From Effusibacillus dendaii (GTDB taxonomy: Bacteria; Bacillota; Bacilli; Tumebacillales; Effusibacillaceae), in NCBI RefSeq assembly GCF_015097055.1, contig NZ_AP023366.1, positions 844,501 through 908,500 of the forward strand: a stretch of 64,000 bases of DNA. The letters run 5' to 3'. Both the position numbers and the translations under genes were made by a program. The notes beneath the pieces were generated by a model. It was given only the letters and a program-made list of their open reading frames with translations. It did no database searches and was not told the DNA's origin. Below are positions 1,118 through 46,181 of the stretch, in pieces (position 1 is the first letter of the stretch; each line of letters opens with the position of its first letter).

Positions 1118-1396
1118 ATTAATATCGACGAATTTATAATATCTTGCCTTTCTGATTCTGTCAACAAGAAAAAATCCGAATCCCTTGATTTTTACAATCG
1201 GTGAAATAAAATAAGCCAGCGCTCCAAAAGCGGTCATTTTCGCCCAAAGAGGGGTGCGCGGATCGACCGCACAAAAATACATGGCTACTGCATCTTCCAC
1301 AAAAGGGATTTTGGCGGCGGTCTTTTTTAATTGGGGCCAAAAATTCTGCTTAACAAATTCCTCGTTTTTCTGATATTTATTCGGCTTGTCTGGCAT
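1115..1396 (-). CDS. Small YkvA/DUF1232-like protein with a degenerate C-terminus
   Basis: The 93-residue protein has a basic N-terminal half and a segment (about residues 48-66, [19 protein letters not shown]) typical of the start of the YkvA/DUF1232 domain. The usual continuation, with a D-x-x-P-D motif and an acidic pair, is replaced by an unrelated basic tail, and neither other frame restores it. The gene may therefore have a deleted domain core. It has a good Shine-Dalgarno (GGAGG) before the ATG. It sits directly upstream of the iron permease on the same strand and ends inside the Fur box, so the permease probably has its own promoter within this gene's 3' end. Function of the family is not firmly known. 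Confidence 0.6.
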
Positions 1397-17383: not shown

Positions 17384-17440
17384 AAACCGAATGTCAAAGC
17401 TGTATGTAAGGGTGGCAACTTTCCGAGTAAACACTGTGGC

Positions 17441-18036
17441 TTAGGTCGAGTAGGTTTTCCCAAACAAACACCTTCACGTCGCCGTGGAGGCGGTTTCCCT
17501 TTACGTTTGTTTCGATCGTGTCACCAAAGATCGGACTCGATTACCACTTAGTCCACACTACAATCCTCGAAAAGTCACGTGCGATACGACAGTCTAGGAG
17601 ATTTCCTCAACAACGCCCACACATCTCCCTAGCCTCTTTTGCAACATGGATTTCATGCCTCACCGACATTCTGTTTTTGGCCATAAAACGGGATGTCTGA
17701 ATCCTGCAATCCCTCCATGCCACGCAAGGCAGGCTACGCTGCACACAAGTGTCGTGTCATCCAAGATTCCATTTTCACTCGCCATGCAGGTTCATACCCT
17801 ATGTTGTAATCATTCACACGCTGGTGGTTGACCACAATCATAGGCCTCCGCGGAAGTAGGGTCATCGCCCGCATGCCATTGCAGATCGCCCTACAACCTT
17901 AACTCCCAGTACCAACCCAAGGCTGGGCGCCTCAAGCCAGCACAAGGAACTTCATCGATGTGCCCTTTGACGGATTTTTAGGCCCGCCTTCAGGAGAGGG
18001 GGGTTGACTAGAATACTGCACCACCCGCTCGATTTG
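17441..18036 (-). ncRNA. OLE RNA (ornate, large, extremophilic), predicted
   Basis: About 600 bases hold no credible gene but lie between the DUF421 gene and oapA in the ispA-to-dxs interval, which is the published genomic position of OLE RNA. The minus strand has the expected features: a strong extended -10 promoter upstream, many helices, and a 3' domain in which AAACAAAC (about 17512) pairs with GUUUGUUU, enclosing a small CCGCC/GGCG hairpin. Stretches such as GAAUGAUUACAACAUAGGG and CAGCGUAGCCUGCCUUG agree with my memory of the family consensus, but I cannot run a covariance search. In B. halodurans OLE binds OapA at the membrane and helps tolerance of alcohol, cold and other stresses. 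Ends are approximate. Confidence 0.85.
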
Positions 18037-18041
18037 TTCTC

Positions 18042-39911: not shown

Positions 39912-39966
39912 AAAGAAACCGGACTTCCACCTGCGCCGGAGGCTTGGTGAAAGCCCGGTTTTCTTT
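39912..39966 (-). terminator. Terminator of the gcv operon
   Basis: AAAGAAACCGGACTT (39912-39926) pairs with AAGCCCGGTTTTCTTT (39951-39966). On the minus strand the hairpin begins in the gcvPB stop codon and ends in TTTCTTT. Confidence 0.75.
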
Positions 39967-41422
39967 ATTTCTGGTAACGCAAAACCGGGTTTCTGGCAGC
40001 AGTTGTTTCATCCAACCGGTTAACCAGCGTCGTATGCGGCGCATGTTTAATGACGTCAGGCGTTTGTTCTGCTTCTTTTGCAATCCGGATCAGCGTTTCA
40101 ATAAACTGGTCCAGTGTGTCGATGTTTTCCGTCTCGGTCGGTTCAATCATCATCGCTTCCTCTACGTTTAACGGGAAGTAGATCGTCGGCGGATGGAATC
40201 CAAAATCGAGAATTCGCTTCGCTATATCGAGCGTCTTGATGCCTTGCGCTTTTTGCCGTTTGCCCGACAAAACGAATTCATGCTTGCAGATCCGATCATA
40301 CGGCAAATCAAAATACGGCTGCAGTCGGCGCATCATATAATTGGCGTTAAGAACGGCATCTTCCGTTACCCGTTTCAGTCCGTCCGGCCCCATCGTACGA
40401 ATATACGCGTAAGCGCGTACCAATACGCCAAAATTCCCGTAAAACCCTTTCACTTTTCCGATCGATTGCGGACGGTTGTAATCAAGTACATACTGCCCAT
40501 CCTGATATTCAATTACAGGAACCGGCAAAAATGGGATCAGTTCTTTCTTCACACCCACCGGTCCCGCCCCCGGTCCGCCGCCTCCGTGCGGAGTCGAAAA
40601 CGTTTTGTGCAAATTCAGGTGCACCACGTCAAATCCCATGTCGCCAGGACGTGCGTAACCAAGGATTGCATTCGCATTCGCCCCGTCATAATAGAGCAGG
40701 CCGCCTGCCTCATGCACAATCCGGGCAATTTCTACGATATCTTCCTCAAACAGCCCCAGCGTGGAGGGGTTCGTCAACATCAGGGCCGCTGTATCGGAAC
40801 CGACCGCCTGGCGCAGCGAATCGAGATCGACACCGCCCCGCTCGTTCGATTTGATCGTAATCGTATCGTAACCCGCTACTGTGGCAGATGCCGGGTTCGT
40901 GCCATGCGCCGTATCAGGAACAATCACTTTATTCCGCTTTTCGCCGCGCGATTCATGGTAGGCACGAATCAGCATCAGACCGGTCCACTCCCCTTGCGCA
41001 CCGGCTGCCGGCTGCAGTGACACGCGGTCCATACCCGTAATCTCCTGCAGTTCCGTTTGCAGGTTGTATAACAGTTCCAGTGCGCCCTGTACCGTCTCGC
41101 TCGGCTGGTAAGGATGAATCGAGGCAAACCCGCTCAAGCGGGCCATTCGTTCGTTCCGTTTCGGATTGTATTTCATCGTACAGGAACCGAGCGGGTAAAA
41201 TCCGTTATCGACGCCATAGTTGCGGCGCGACAAAGCGGTGAAATGGCGGATCAAATCGACCTCGCTGACCTCCGGCAGTTCTGCCGCCTGTTGACGCAGA
41301 TACCCGTCCGGGATCATCGCCTCCAGTTTCTGTTCCGGCACATCACAAAGAGGCAAATCGCAGGCCATGCGGTCCGGCCGTGAAAGTTCAAAAATCAACG
41401 GTTGATTGTTTTCCTGTCTCAT
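39965..41422 (-). CDS. gcvPB: Glycine decarboxylase (P protein) subunit 2
   Basis: The 485-residue subunit carries the PLP-binding lysine in [18 protein letters not shown], with the preceding [20 protein letters not shown] loop. It is the catalytic half of the split P protein found in Firmicutes. With gcvPA it decarboxylates glycine and passes the methylamine to lipoyl-GcvH, in the cleavage system that supplies methylene-THF, CO2 and NH3. The start overlaps the gcvPA stop by four bases. A terminator follows at its end. Confidence 0.97.
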
Positions 41423-42768
41423 AGAATCGCCTCCAATCGCTCGGCCAACAGATCAATTTCCTCTTTTGTACGAAGTTCGGTTACGGCCAACAACATTCCG
41501 TTTTCATATTCCGGATAGGAACGTTCCAGTGAATAGCCTCCTACAATCCCCGCTTCCAGCAGTTTGCGGTTGGTCTCATCCGGATTGCCTGGCAGTTTGA
41601 CAGCAAATTCATTAAAGAACGGCACGTTAAAAATCGGCTCGATTCCTTTTACACCCACCAGTTTCGACTGGGCATAGTGCGCTTTTTGCAGATTCAGTTC
41701 GGCCACCTGCTGGAGCCCCTTTTTGCCTAAATAACTGAGATAAATTGTGGCTGCCAAAGCGTTTAAAGCCTGGTTGGAACAGATGTTGGAACTCGCCTTT
41801 TCCCGCCGGATATGCTGTTCGCGCGCCTGCAATGTCAGAACGAACGCCCGGCGTCCATCGAGATCTTTCGTTTGTCCGACCACTCGGCCCGGAATCCGAC
41901 GAACCAACTCTTTCGTGGTCGCCAACATGCCTAAGTACGGACCGCCAAACGCCACCGGATTGCCAAGCGGCTGACCTTCCGCCACCACAATGTCAGCGCC
42001 AAACCGGCCAGGTGCTTCCAATACACCCAGTGCAATCGGATTGACAGCCGTTACAAACAACGCTTTCTGCCGATGTGCCAATTCGCTGATCGTCCGAATG
42101 TCCTCAATCGAACCGAAAAAGTTAGGATACTGCACCAGAACGCCTGCCACATTGTCTGTCAGTTTGGCTTCCAAATCAGCCAAATCGGTCAGCCCGTTTG
42201 CGATTTTGATTTCTTCCACTTCAATCTGTTGACCGTACGCGTAGGTTCGGAGCACCTGCCGATATTCCGGGTGAACGGCGCGAGAAACCAGCAATTTCGA
42301 ACGGCGAGTCGCCGCACAGGCCATAATGCCCGCTTCTGCCAAAGCGCTGGCCCCGTCGTACATGGAGGCATTCGCCACATCCATGCCGGTCAGTTCACAG
42401 AACATCGTTTGATATTCGAAGATGGCCTGCAAAACACCCTGCGAAATTTCAGGCTGATAGGGGGTATACGCCGTGTAAAATTCGGACCGGCTGATCAATG
42501 CATCCACGACAGCCGGAATGTAATGCTGGTACGCGCCTGCGCCCAGGAAACTGATATACTCTTCCAAATTTACATTGCGAGCTGCCATTTTTGAAAAATT
42601 GCGGGTCAGCTCCATTTCCGACCAAGCGGGCGGAAGTTGAAGATCTTTTTTCAGGCGAACCGATTCCGGTATGTCGGTAAACAGTTCTTCCATGCTTGAA
42701 ATGCCAAGCGATCGCATCATTTTATCGCGATCTGATGCGGTGTTTGGGATATATCCGAAGCTTTTCAA
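41419..42768 (-). CDS. gcvPA: Glycine decarboxylase (P protein) subunit 1
   Basis: The 449-residue N-terminal half of the P protein opens with [18 protein letters not shown] and contains [18 protein letters not shown] and [20 protein letters not shown], family hallmarks. It lacks the PLP lysine, which lies in gcvPB, and forms a heterotetramer with it. It follows gcvT by 17 bases in the riboswitch-controlled operon. gcvH and lipoate enzymes are not in the window. Confidence 0.97.
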
Positions 42769-42785: not shown

Positions 42786-43883
42786 CTACTTCTCCCGTTT
42801 GTAAAAGGGGGTTTTGACGATCACGCCGCGAACCGGTTTATTGCGAATGATTACATCGATTTCCTGGCCGATTTTGGCAAAATCCGCTTCCAGAATCGCC
42901 AATCCAATGTTTTTCTTAACGGTAGGGCCCATGGTGCCGGTCGTAACTTCCCCAACCCGTCGGCCGTTAACCTGCACTTCATAATGGGTGCGCGGAATTC
43001 CTCGTTCGATCATTTCAAATCCGACCAATTTGCGGGAAGGGCCTGCTTCTTTCTGTTTTAACAGGGCCTCCCGTCCGATAAAATCGCCTTTTTCGAATTT
43101 GACGAACATACCCAATCCCGCTTCCAGCGGCGAAATCCACTCACTGATTTCCTGTCCGTACAGCGGCAGCTTCGCTTCAAACCGCAGCGTGTCGCGAGCG
43201 CCAAGCCCTGCTGGAACAACTCCATCCGGCTCTCCTGCGGAGAGAATTTTATCCCACAGTTCGCTCGCTTTGTCGGCGTCCACATACAGCTCAAATCCGT
43301 CTTCTCCCGTATATCCGGTGCGTGAGACCAGCGCTGAAATGCCGCCCACATCGACATTCTGCGCGAACCAGTAATAACGGATCTGCGACAGGTCAAAGTC
43401 GGTCAGTTTGCGGAGCACTTTTTCCGCCAAAGGCCCCTGCAGAGCCAATTGAGCAATCTGTGACGACAGGTTTTGAACCTGTACATCCCCTTTGACATGC
43501 TGTTTGATCCAGTTGTAATCTTTGTTGGTGTTGGCCGCATTGACCACCAGCCAGTAGCGGTTTTCCGCCAATCGATAGACCAGCAGGTCATCCACACAAC
43601 CGCCGTTCGGGTAGCACATCGGCGAATAGAGCGCCTGGCCGATTTCGACTTTGGACGCATCGTTTGTGATCAGGTTTTGGATATTCGATAAAGCGTCAGG
43701 CCCCAGCATTTCAATTTCACCCATATGCGACACGTCAAAGAGACCTGCGCGCGTGCGAACCGCGTCATGCTCCGCCAGAATGCCGGAAAACTGCACAGGC
43801 AATTCCCATCCGCCAAAATCGATTGTTTTTCCGCCATACCGTTCATACAGGGCAAACAACGGTGTCCGTTTCAATTCTGTCAT
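42786..43883 (-). CDS. gcvT: Aminomethyltransferase (T protein)
   Basis: ATG 43883 (GGGAGGG upstream) begins MTELKRTPLFALYERYGGK; an upstream in-frame extension of 67 codons runs into the riboswitch and is not coding. The 365-residue protein contains the folate-binding DVSHMGEIEM, DDLLVYR and SRTGYTGEDGFELY motifs. It transfers the methylene group from aminomethyl-lipoyl-GcvH to THF and releases ammonia. It is first in the operon gcvT-gcvPA-gcvPB. Confidence 0.97.
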   Translation of the reverse strand: MTELKRTPLFALYERYGGKTIDFGGWELPVQFSGILAEHDAVRTRAGLFDVSHMGEIEMLGPDALSNIQNLITNDASKVEIGQALYSPMCYPNGGCVDDLLVYRLAENRYWLVVNAANTNKDYNWIKQHVKGDVQVQNLSSQIAQLALQGPLAEKVLRKLTDFDLSQIRYYWFAQNVDVGGISALVSRTGYTGEDGFELYVDADKASELWDKILSAGEPDGVVPAGLGARDTLRFEAKLPLYGQEISEWISPLEAGLGMFVKFEKGDFIGREALLKQKEAGPSRKLVGFEMIERGIPRTHYEVQVNGRRVGEVTTGTMGPTVKKNIGLAILEADFAKIGQEIDVIIRNKPVRGVIVKTPFYKREK

Positions 43884-43920: not shown

Positions 43921-44376
43921 CCAAAAGAAAAAGACACACAAATGGGAAAAAATCCCTGTGTGTCTGTCTCTGTCTTTTTACCTGAGAGTCCCCAACCACG
44001 AATACAAATTAGAAACTGCGGATTTCTTTGTTGCGACGTCATTCCGATGCGCTGGACACGATGTCCGAGTGTCGACCATGTCACAGGACGTGACTGGGAT
44101 GGTCGACCTCACATAGGTTTCCACTATGCTCCGCTTCTCATTTCCGCCGCGCCTCGAACTCCTTGTTTCTAATTTGTCTTCTCGAAGCATGCTTTATGAC
44201 AAATCCATAAAACTATGAATCGTGGGTGTTGCCCCTTGGGTGGCTTATGTATGAAAGCTCTCTCCAGAGGTGCGTCCCGAATACGGTGACCTTTGCCTGA
44301 GAGATTCGTGAACGGAATGCAGGACACCCCTTTCACTTGCTCCTACGGCGACGCCATAACGCGTTCTCTCCCGTAT
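43921..44376 (-). promoter_or_regulatory. Tandem glycine riboswitch with terminator
   Basis: Two glycine aptamers lie in tandem upstream of gcvT. Aptamer 1 (about 44256-44374) shows the conserved CGGGAGAG opening, GGAGCAA, CUCUCAGGCAAAGG and GGGACGC...CUCUGGAGAGAG. Aptamer 2 (about 43966-44255) has GGGGCAACACCC and the end GGGGACUCUCAGGUAAAAAGACAGAGA. They are followed by an intrinsic terminator, with stem AGACACACA / TGTGTGTCT (43932-43940 with 43957-43965) and TTTTTCTTTT on the minus strand. Glycine binding is expected to free gcvT from termination. Aptamer 2 is unusual: about 235 bases separate its two conserved halves against about 32 in aptamer 1. Confidence 0.93.
44004..44177 (-). repeat. 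Closing 13-bp inverted repeat of the aptamer-2 insertion
   Basis: ACAAATTAGAAAC (44004-44016) and its exact complement (44165-44177) enclose 148 bases inside the P3 region of the second glycine aptamer. Within them lie a 9-bp palindromic stem with an inner 5-bp stem (GTCGACCAT / ATGGTCGAC, about 44071-44107), a GGACA-tcg-TGTCC hairpin (44053-44065) and a CATAG/CTATG hairpin (44111-44127). A further small hairpin (TTATG/CATAA) flanks the repeat. The whole segment is a compact folded module. Confidence 0.8.
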
Positions 44377-44453
44377 CAATCATCCGCAGTATAAAATTGT
44401 AAAATTAACACATTCTAAACCAGCAACCTGATTATACCACATGAGGTGAACCC

Positions 44454-46181
44454 ATGAAACTGGATTCTTTGCCGAACCCCCTTGTGCATGGGGCACCGGA
44501 CTGTATTATAGAAGATTCACTGTTTCCGCAGTTTCTAGAGCGCCTCGAAACTGACAATTGGGACAACTGGACTTTATTCCAATTGATTCGGAAAGCGGAA
44601 GAAACAAAAGTCGTTCCTTCTTTTGACGAACTGCTCTGTCTGCAGCATATCCCGGCGGTGATTCCGTATCCGCACCAGATTACCACTGCCAAACGGGTGC
44701 TCAACGAACTGCAGGGGCGAGCCATTCTGGCGGACGAAGTGGGGCTCGGAAAAACAATCGAGGCCGGTCTCATCCTGAAAGAATACGTAATGCGCGGATT
44801 GGTCAAAAAAGCGCTGATTCTCGTTCCCGCTTCTTTGGTGCTGCAATGGACCCGCGAACTGAATGAGAAATTTAACATCTCCGCTTTCGCCCAACGAAAC
44901 GAATGGTCCTGGACCACTTACGATATTTTGGTATCCTCAATTGACACGACAAAACGGGAACCCCATCGCAGCACCGTTTTGGAGCAGGATTGGGATCTGG
45001 TGATCGTAGACGAGGCGCATAAATTAAAAAACAAGAAAACAAAAAACTGGGAACTGATCAACCAACTGCGCAAAAAATATTTGCTGCTTTTGACTGCCAC
45101 TCCCATCCAGAACGACCTGAAAGAACTATACAACCTCATCACTCTGTTAAAACCAGGCCAACTGGGAAGCACCCAACAATTTGCGTCCACGTTTATTGAG
45201 GAAAAACGGAAACCCAAAAATGCCGCCGAACTGAAAAGCGCGCTTTCGGAAGTCATGATCCGTAACAAGCGAAGCGAGGGAGGCGTTTTTTTTACGAAGC
45301 GGAATGTGAAATCGATTCCGCTTGATCTCTCTCCGCAGGAACGGGAATTGTACGATGCGGTCTCCTCTTTTGTAAAGGAGGAATATGTCAAACGGCGGGC
45401 GGAGAAAGGGAACGTCCTGCCGCTAATTACATTGCAACGGGAAATCTGTTCGTCTCCTTATGCGGCTTTTCCCACGCTGGAAAGAATGTATAAAGATCCG
45501 AAAACATCCGAATCGTTGAAGTCGAGAATTATGCAGTTGAATCAGATGTGTCAAGCGATCCCGCTTGGTGAATACACGAAGGGAAAATTGGTGCTCGAAC
45601 TGGTCGCGCAGGCAAACGATAAAATGATCGTCTTTACCGAGTATCGGGCCAGTCAGGATTATCTGCTGTATATGCTGGAACAAAACGGCGTAAAAGCGAT
45701 TCCGTTTCGGGGCGGTTTCAAACGAGGCAAAAAAGACTGGATGACCGAACTTTTTGAAAAGAGAGCGCAAGTCATGGTCGCGACGGAAGCGGGCGGTGAA
45801 GGAATCAACCTGCAATTTTGCAATCAGGTGATTAACTTTGATTTGCCCTGGAATCCGATGCGGATCGAACAACGGATCGGACGCGTTCACCGCCTCGGAC
45901 AGGAACGGGACGTTTGCGTATACAACATGGCAACGCGAGGCACGATTGAAGAACATATCGTCAGTTTGCTGCAGGAAAAAATCCGCATGTTCGAAATGGT
46001 CATTGGCGAATTGGATATGATCATCGGCCGTATGGGCAAAAATTTGGAAAACGACATTATGGAGTGGTTTGTCAGTTCCAACAGCGAGCAGGAATTGGCC
46101 GCCCGGTTCGACCAGTTGGGACAGCATGTCGAACAGGCAAAACAGGAAATCCTGAAAGACACATTTCTTGATTATGTTTGA
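44454..46181 (+). CDS. yqhH: SNF2-family DEAD/DEAH helicase (YqhH-type)
   Basis: The 575-residue protein has SF2/SNF2 helicase motifs in order: Walker A in ADEVGLGKTIEAG, DEAH in VIVDEAHKLKNKKTKNW, TATPIQND, a second RecA lobe with VFTEYRAS, ATEAGGEGINLQ and the arginine finger in QRIGRVHRLGQ. It resembles RapA-type remodelers and B. subtilis YqhH, for which a role in transcription or DNA remodelling is assumed but not established. It is divergent from the gcv operon and followed by yqhG after eight bases, the same gene pair as in B. subtilis. Start ATG 44454 has GAGGTG upstream. Confidence 0.93.
   Translation: MKLDSLPNPLVHGAPDCIIEDSLFPQFLERLETDNWDNWTLFQLIRKAEETKVVPSFDELLCLQHIPAVIPYPHQITTAKRVLNELQGRAILADEVGLGKTIEAGLILKEYVMRGLVKKALILVPASLVLQWTRELNEKFNISAFAQRNEWSWTTYDILVSSIDTTKREPHRSTVLEQDWDLVIVDEAHKLKNKKTKNWELINQLRKKYLLLLTATPIQNDLKELYNLITLLKPGQLGSTQQFASTFIEEKRKPKNAAELKSALSEVMIRNKRSEGGVFFTKRNVKSIPLDLSPQERELYDAVSSFVKEEYVKRRAEKGNVLPLITLQREICSSPYAAFPTLERMYKDPKTSESLKSRIMQLNQMCQAIPLGEYTKGKLVLELVAQANDKMIVFTEYRASQDYLLYMLEQNGVKAIPFRGGFKRGKKDWMTELFEKRAQVMVATEAGGEGINLQFCNQVINFDLPWNPMRIEQRIGRVHRLGQERDVCVYNMATRGTIEEHIVSLLQEKIRMFEMVIGELDMIIGRMGKNLENDIMEWFVSSNSEQELAARFDQLGQHVEQAKQEILKDTFLDYV

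Follow-up and report, generated by a model that had tools for sequence, protein, structure and literature searches.

The glycine riboswitch of the gcvT operon in Effusibacillus dendaii raises the question of what the roughly 200 extra folded bases within its second aptamer are, where they came from, and whether the switch can work with them inside. The window, that is, the whole 64,000-nt stretch of DNA analysed here, contains on its minus strand gcvT (42786-43883; NCBIfam TIGR00528, 446.4 bits), gcvPA (41419-42768; NF001696, 677.8 bits) and gcvPB (39965-41422; NF003346, 800.4 bits), all above the cut-offs, and upstream of them a tandem glycine riboswitch in the arrangement of Rfam family RF00504. 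Judging from sequence comparison, the insertion can probably be explained in part, as a diverged dispersed hairpin repeat in P3b of a glycine riboswitch that probably still works.

Structure of the gcvT leader and of the insertion

Aptamer 1 (44274-44383, minus strand) matched RF00504 with 53.7 bits against a gathering score of 32. Aptamer 2 with its extended P3b (43966-44272, minus strand) was delimited by the invariant columns and by alignment with the leaders of three congeners, and the expression platform, a terminator hairpin followed by a U run (43923-43965, minus strand), was read from the sequence and seen in the folded leader; it was missed by a simple terminator scan. With its two aptamers, its terminator, gcvT-gcvPA-gcvPB downstream and an apparently intact aptamer core, the leader resembles other tandem gcvT switches of RF00504, and it differs from them in that P3b of aptamer 2 spans about 240 nt and contains a repeat element. 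A divergent gene for an SNF2-type helicase (44454-46181, plus strand), whose best NCBIfam match, DISARM DrmD, lies far below the cut-off, adjoins the leader. Elsewhere in the window, a full-length OLE RNA was found with 522.7 bits (17396-18040, minus strand).

The conserved 5′ half of aptamer 2 (CUCUGGAGAG...CCACCCAAGGGG, 44269-44231, minus strand) and its 3′ half (ACUCUCAGGU...GACAGAG, about 43990-43968, minus strand) are both present and far apart, as originally predicted, giving a P3 of 242-243 nt compared with 36 nt in aptamer 1. P3b and its extension, as read from the sequence, occupy 44225-43996 (minus strand), starting from a possible base formed by CCACGA/UCGUGG, the pairs of which had a probability of only 0.01-0.04 in unconstrained folding. 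The 5′ spacer of the P3b loop (44178-44219, minus strand) holds the palindrome AAGCATGCTT and leads to the insert proper (44004-44177, minus strand), whose ends pair in a perfect 13-bp stem (44177-44165 with 44016-44004); when one mismatch was allowed, the inverted repeat became a 17-nt pair (44165-44181 and 44000-44016). Inside it lie a palindrome of 9 perfect base pairs (44107-44099 with 44079-44071) topped by a 5-bp inner hairpin, and two more hairpins. The 13-bp inverted repeat, the nested palindromic stem and the two further hairpins had all been described in the original prediction, and folding the insert alone and in context, the check proposed there, gave an identical fold. Alone, the insert folded at −71.8 kcal/mol (z −6.58), a value reached by none of 200 shuffles, and in the whole leader the 13-bp stem had pair probabilities of 0.87-1.0. 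Two ORFs (70 and 173 aa) overlap the insert. These results confirm that the insertion of about 200 extra folded bases in P3 of aptamer 2 is real.

The core of the insert and the Bacillaceae-1 hairpins

Bacillaceae-1 (RF01690) has been an orphan RNA since 2010 and is characterised by a pair of hairpins whose loops read RUCCU. When the leader was scanned with Rfam at lax thresholds, a match to this family appeared at 44118-44053 on the minus strand with 25.7 bits against the gathering cut-off of 35, and the core is thus not a member by Rfam's own cut-off. The same cut-off divides clear copies of the subfamily to which the core is related, with scores of 19.0 and 17.6 below it and of 35.8 and 36.7 above it. 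Like Bacillaceae-1, the core consists of two hairpins, of which the first has GUCCU as its loop, and its relatives are dispersed in this genome, often in rRNA and tRNA operons; the core's second loop, unlike those of the consensus used in the lax scan, is AUCGU. Matches to CRISPR-DR26, ctRNA and sR58 in that scan were far below their cut-offs and were taken as chance. RF01690 itself produced 33 matches in this genome at E ≤ 10, 17 of them over the cut-off, and at E ≤ 1 it had hits in 22 of the 61 genomes. The subfamily signature, CGACACTMG followed by the second hairpin, had eight exact pattern matches here and none in three congeners, and close copies of the subfamily were found in another genome (G002).

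A covariance model (R1) was constructed from 12 aligned copies of the repeat with the riboswitch copy left out. Searched against the window, R1 hit the core at 44107-44054 with 47.2 bits (E = 1.9e-11), the next match having an E value of 0.41; searched against the genome, it recovered the core (E = 1.0e-9) as one of 26 matches at E ≤ 0.01, and 11 of the 14 genomes searched contained R1 matches. In the alignment including the riboswitch copy, 8 of 13 stem pairs show double changes and 95.2% of cells pair; sliding the partners destroys the pairing, and the covariation score of the family was reached by none of 500 shuffles. Because of the match to a model from which it had been left out, the copies in the genome and the covariation of the stems, the core (44053-44107, minus strand) is shown, at the level of sequence and predicted pairing, to be a diverged 55-nt member of a dispersed double-hairpin repeat family related to Bacillaceae-1.

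The divergence of the riboswitch copy is uneven. All 13 pairs are kept, together with 13 of 21 conserved unpaired columns, compared with 16-18 of 18-21 such columns in the 12 other copies, and its linker, UCCCA, is found in this copy alone, the other 12 having A-rich linkers. We read the drift of the loops under maintained pairing, in this single copy, as the likely result of selection for staying folded and not for the repeat's own job.

State of aptamer 2 and variation of its P3b

At the gathering score, the Rfam glycine model suggested as a check in the original prediction reported aptamer 1 and did not report aptamer 2. The glycine-GGAnGA model at a lax threshold covered the 5′ part of aptamer 2 (74.6 bits; gathering score, 110), and R2, a covariance model specific to aptamer 2, aligned its 5′ half correctly but put the 3′ half in the wrong place (21.4 bits). 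We take the trouble that R2 and RF00504 have with aptamer 2 to be caused by the long insert. When the flanks of the insert were joined, aptamer 2 kept 33 of the 34 columns that are invariant in 16 other aptamer-2 sequences, the exception being the G after aptamer 2, which is A here. This comparison shows the conserved core sequence of P1, P2, P3a and the joining regions to be kept and, together with the congener alignment, supports the originally predicted placement in P3, in which the aptamer could still fold. As 33 of 34 invariant columns are kept, we infer glycine binding and a riboswitch that is probably still working.

We consider it likely that the extra sequence arose by insertion at the terminal part of P3b in aptamer 2, with a diverged, mobile-looking hairpin repeat as its core inside about 120 nt of flanking sequence that the 13-bp stem closes upon itself, and that it is now mostly a tolerated passenger. 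Since this stem would make the insert an independent folding unit, neither helix P1 nor the glycine pocket at P3a would be disturbed, and the riboswitch would still act as an ON switch upstream of gcvT-gcvPA-gcvPB; a misfolded insert would be harmful to it, which would explain why the fold is kept. Counted against this explanation were the lack of a flanking direct repeat of at least 9 nt, the lack of copies of the outer sequence, and the result of folding the leader without constraints, in which native P1 and P3a of aptamer 2 were not favoured. Such folding often misses ligand-bound folds.

The insert may instead have been taken into service, stabilising P3b or providing a contact and so tuning the switch, which would agree with the retention of every pair while unpaired bases drifted and with the linker peculiar to this copy. 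One form of such service would be a P5-like contact in which the altered linker's AUCCC pairs with a GGGAU of the terminator arm; PMC13104608 reports a C-tract/G-tract pseudoknot of this kind for 66% of such ON switches. The two motifs are present, but the pairing was no better than chance and was rejected: a 5-bp match is expected fairly often, and the best helix between P3b and downstream sequence was no better than in shuffles (0.97 of shuffles had one as long). We regard such recruitment as unlikely. That the insertion inactivated aptamer 2, leaving a single-aptamer switch through aptamer 1, appears distinctly unlikely, for drift would be expected in a dead aptamer and nearly all invariant columns are kept here. 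The G-to-A change after aptamer 2 fits inactivation, as does the behaviour of the Bacillus subtilis switch, in which, according to PMC5666159, mutation of the aptamer 2 binding site did not reduce regulation; aptamer 1 was required there for full expression. The original prediction had offered a second sensing domain or a ribozyme beside a mobile RNA. The strong independent fold of the insert would suit a sensor or ribozyme, yet no such Rfam family was found in the insert at E values up to 10 and the core was traced to a dispersed repeat family, making this reading extremely improbable; the suggestion of a mobile RNA was supported for the 55-nt core, as a dispersed repeat.

The passenger explanation agrees with the variation of P3b in other leaders. 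In the three congeners, the orthologous gcvT leaders have an aptamer 2 P3 of 20, 37 and 23 nt. We surveyed 80 named gcvT loci, 32 of which had a pattern match (2 of them false), together with eight of the genus's riboswitch loci; two loci that are not riboswitches (L133, L137) and an aptamer 2 with a false 3′ half (L085) were dropped, and loci missed by the pattern (L088 and L112, for example) were inspected by eye. The believable pattern matches other than that of the window gave P3 values of 5 to 70 nt. P3b is nearly absent in three genomes (G011, G012, G013; loci L238-L240), about 75 nt long in Alicyclobacillaceae bacterium I2511 (L112), and holds a 105-nt stretch in G006; the latter is a single copy and was not counted in favour of a repeat origin. 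In these predicted structures, P3b of aptamer 2 tolerates very different lengths. The most telling case is a pair of Anoxybacillus tepidamans strains: P3b of aptamer 2 in the gcvT glycine riboswitch of strain PS2 has 109 extra nt (L088, 1793-1901), and the same P3b in strain DSM 16325 (L090) has a 4-nt loop, an empty site. The PS2 insert is a partial copy of a different dispersed repeat, with 10 matches in the PS2 genome, itself included, and at least 40 in the DSM 16325 genome (40 of the 96 candidates were scored). This pair appears to give independent support for repeat insertion at P3b. Together with the E. dendaii leader, it would provide concrete cases of an aptamer growing by capture of dispersed hairpins at one peripheral helix, through which the origin of large, variable RNA domains becomes testable.

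The claim that no glycine riboswitch with such an insertion had been described was too strong, and repeat insertion at the same site in PS2 weakens it too. The working tandem gcvT riboswitch of Neisseria gonorrhoeae has a 73-nt folded, Y-shaped P3 loop in aptamer 2, as described in PMC13104608. It shares with the present leader an extended, folded and species-variable P3 in aptamer 2 of an ON switch, which works there and probably here, and differs in that its P3 is three times shorter, its control is translational, and the passages on it mention no origin from a repeat. In the pneumococcal trp operon, PMC3049150 places a BOX repeat between two T-box riboswitches; there too a small dispersed repeat lies in a composite regulatory leader that seemingly still works, but between riboswitches and not within an aptamer. 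In the literature searched, which consisted mostly of papers outside subscription, we found no case of a repeat or transposable element within a riboswitch aptamer.

Origin of the insert and behaviour of the repeats

The flanking sequence of about 120 nt, including the 13-bp stem, behaved differently from the core. In BLAST searches, the whole insert (236 nt) matched only itself in its own genome, and across 61 genomes only the core hairpin was matched, in G002 and G013. For the outer 5′ part, a search of four genomes of the genus returned nothing significant beyond itself (next best E = 0.093). Because these outer 120 nt are without copies, only the core family is shown to be dispersed; the copies elsewhere for which the original prediction had proposed a search exist for the core, and the 174-nt unit as a whole is single. 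Congeners without the insert were found, as in the refuting test formulated there, and the duplicated flanks which that test also named were not, no direct repeat of at least 9 nt flanking the insert. The outer arms resembled the flanks of other copies no better than shuffles did (264 of 300 for the left arm, 33 of 300 for the right), and the idea that they are remnants of a host Bacillaceae-1 element was rejected. Either the hairpin was brought by an inverted-repeat element, or the outer part is an older extension of P3b.

The whole unit (44004-44177) may be read as a MITE-like element with 13-bp terminal inverted repeats and the hairpin repeat nested inside, which concerns its origin and is compatible with a passenger role. 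The perfect inverted termini argue for this, as does the frequency of nesting: among 17 other copies viewed, several of them related and so not independent events, 7 lie within another Bacillaceae-1-type element (1120k, 93k, 2288k, 1449k, 443k, G002_8 and G002_14), the 55-nt double hairpin sitting within the inner hairpin of the other element (loci L061, L076, L080, L205, L063, L207 and L208). Against it stand the single copy of the outer part in the genus, where a MITE should have several, the lack of a flanking duplication at the lengths searched, and the outer arms' chance-level resemblance to other flanks. We hold a MITE-like origin to be possible, if somewhat doubtful.

Downstream of a cluster of tRNA genes, another copy (1126k; L038, about 1240-1330, minus strand) occupies the loop of a long terminator-like hairpin. 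As read from the sequences, the next four bases are GTCG in 11 of the 17 copies, a count to which the same relatedness applies. In a flank-pairing test of 18 places, which bears on hairpin-loop targeting as a possible general rule, the mean was −5.8 kcal/mol compared with −4.7 kcal/mol for mismatched flanks, and in 3 of the 18 no more than 3% of shuffles were as low. The strand carrying RUCCU was on the transcribed side in 31 of 32 copies near tRNA or rRNA genes (62 loci were examined, 30 of them with no such neighbour), copies in rRNA operons not being independent. The strand of Bacillaceae-1 is described as uncertain, and CsrA sites on the other strand are proposed, in PMC4333381; the orientation of the RUCCU motifs speaks against that proposal for the copies examined here. 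As to the nature of Bacillaceae-1, its copies here resemble a dispersed, nested repeat that stable RNA operons retain in the sense orientation. A single joint reading of its own copies, the terminator-like hairpin after the tRNA genes and the riboswitch P3b would be that Bacillaceae-1-type hairpins are mobile and land sense strand up within hairpins of transcribed structured RNAs, usually next to GTCG, and that peripheral helices of riboswitches thus grow by capture of sequences that can later be put to use; we put this forward tentatively and consider it rather doubtful. Two further observations were made among these loci: four Bacillaceae-1-type units arranged in tandem, each about 56 nt long (L016, about 1333-1567; G000:C1:829741-829975), and a broken gene for a Y1 transposase that lies about 0.9 kb from a composite of nested hairpins (L209; G000:C1:443969-444320).
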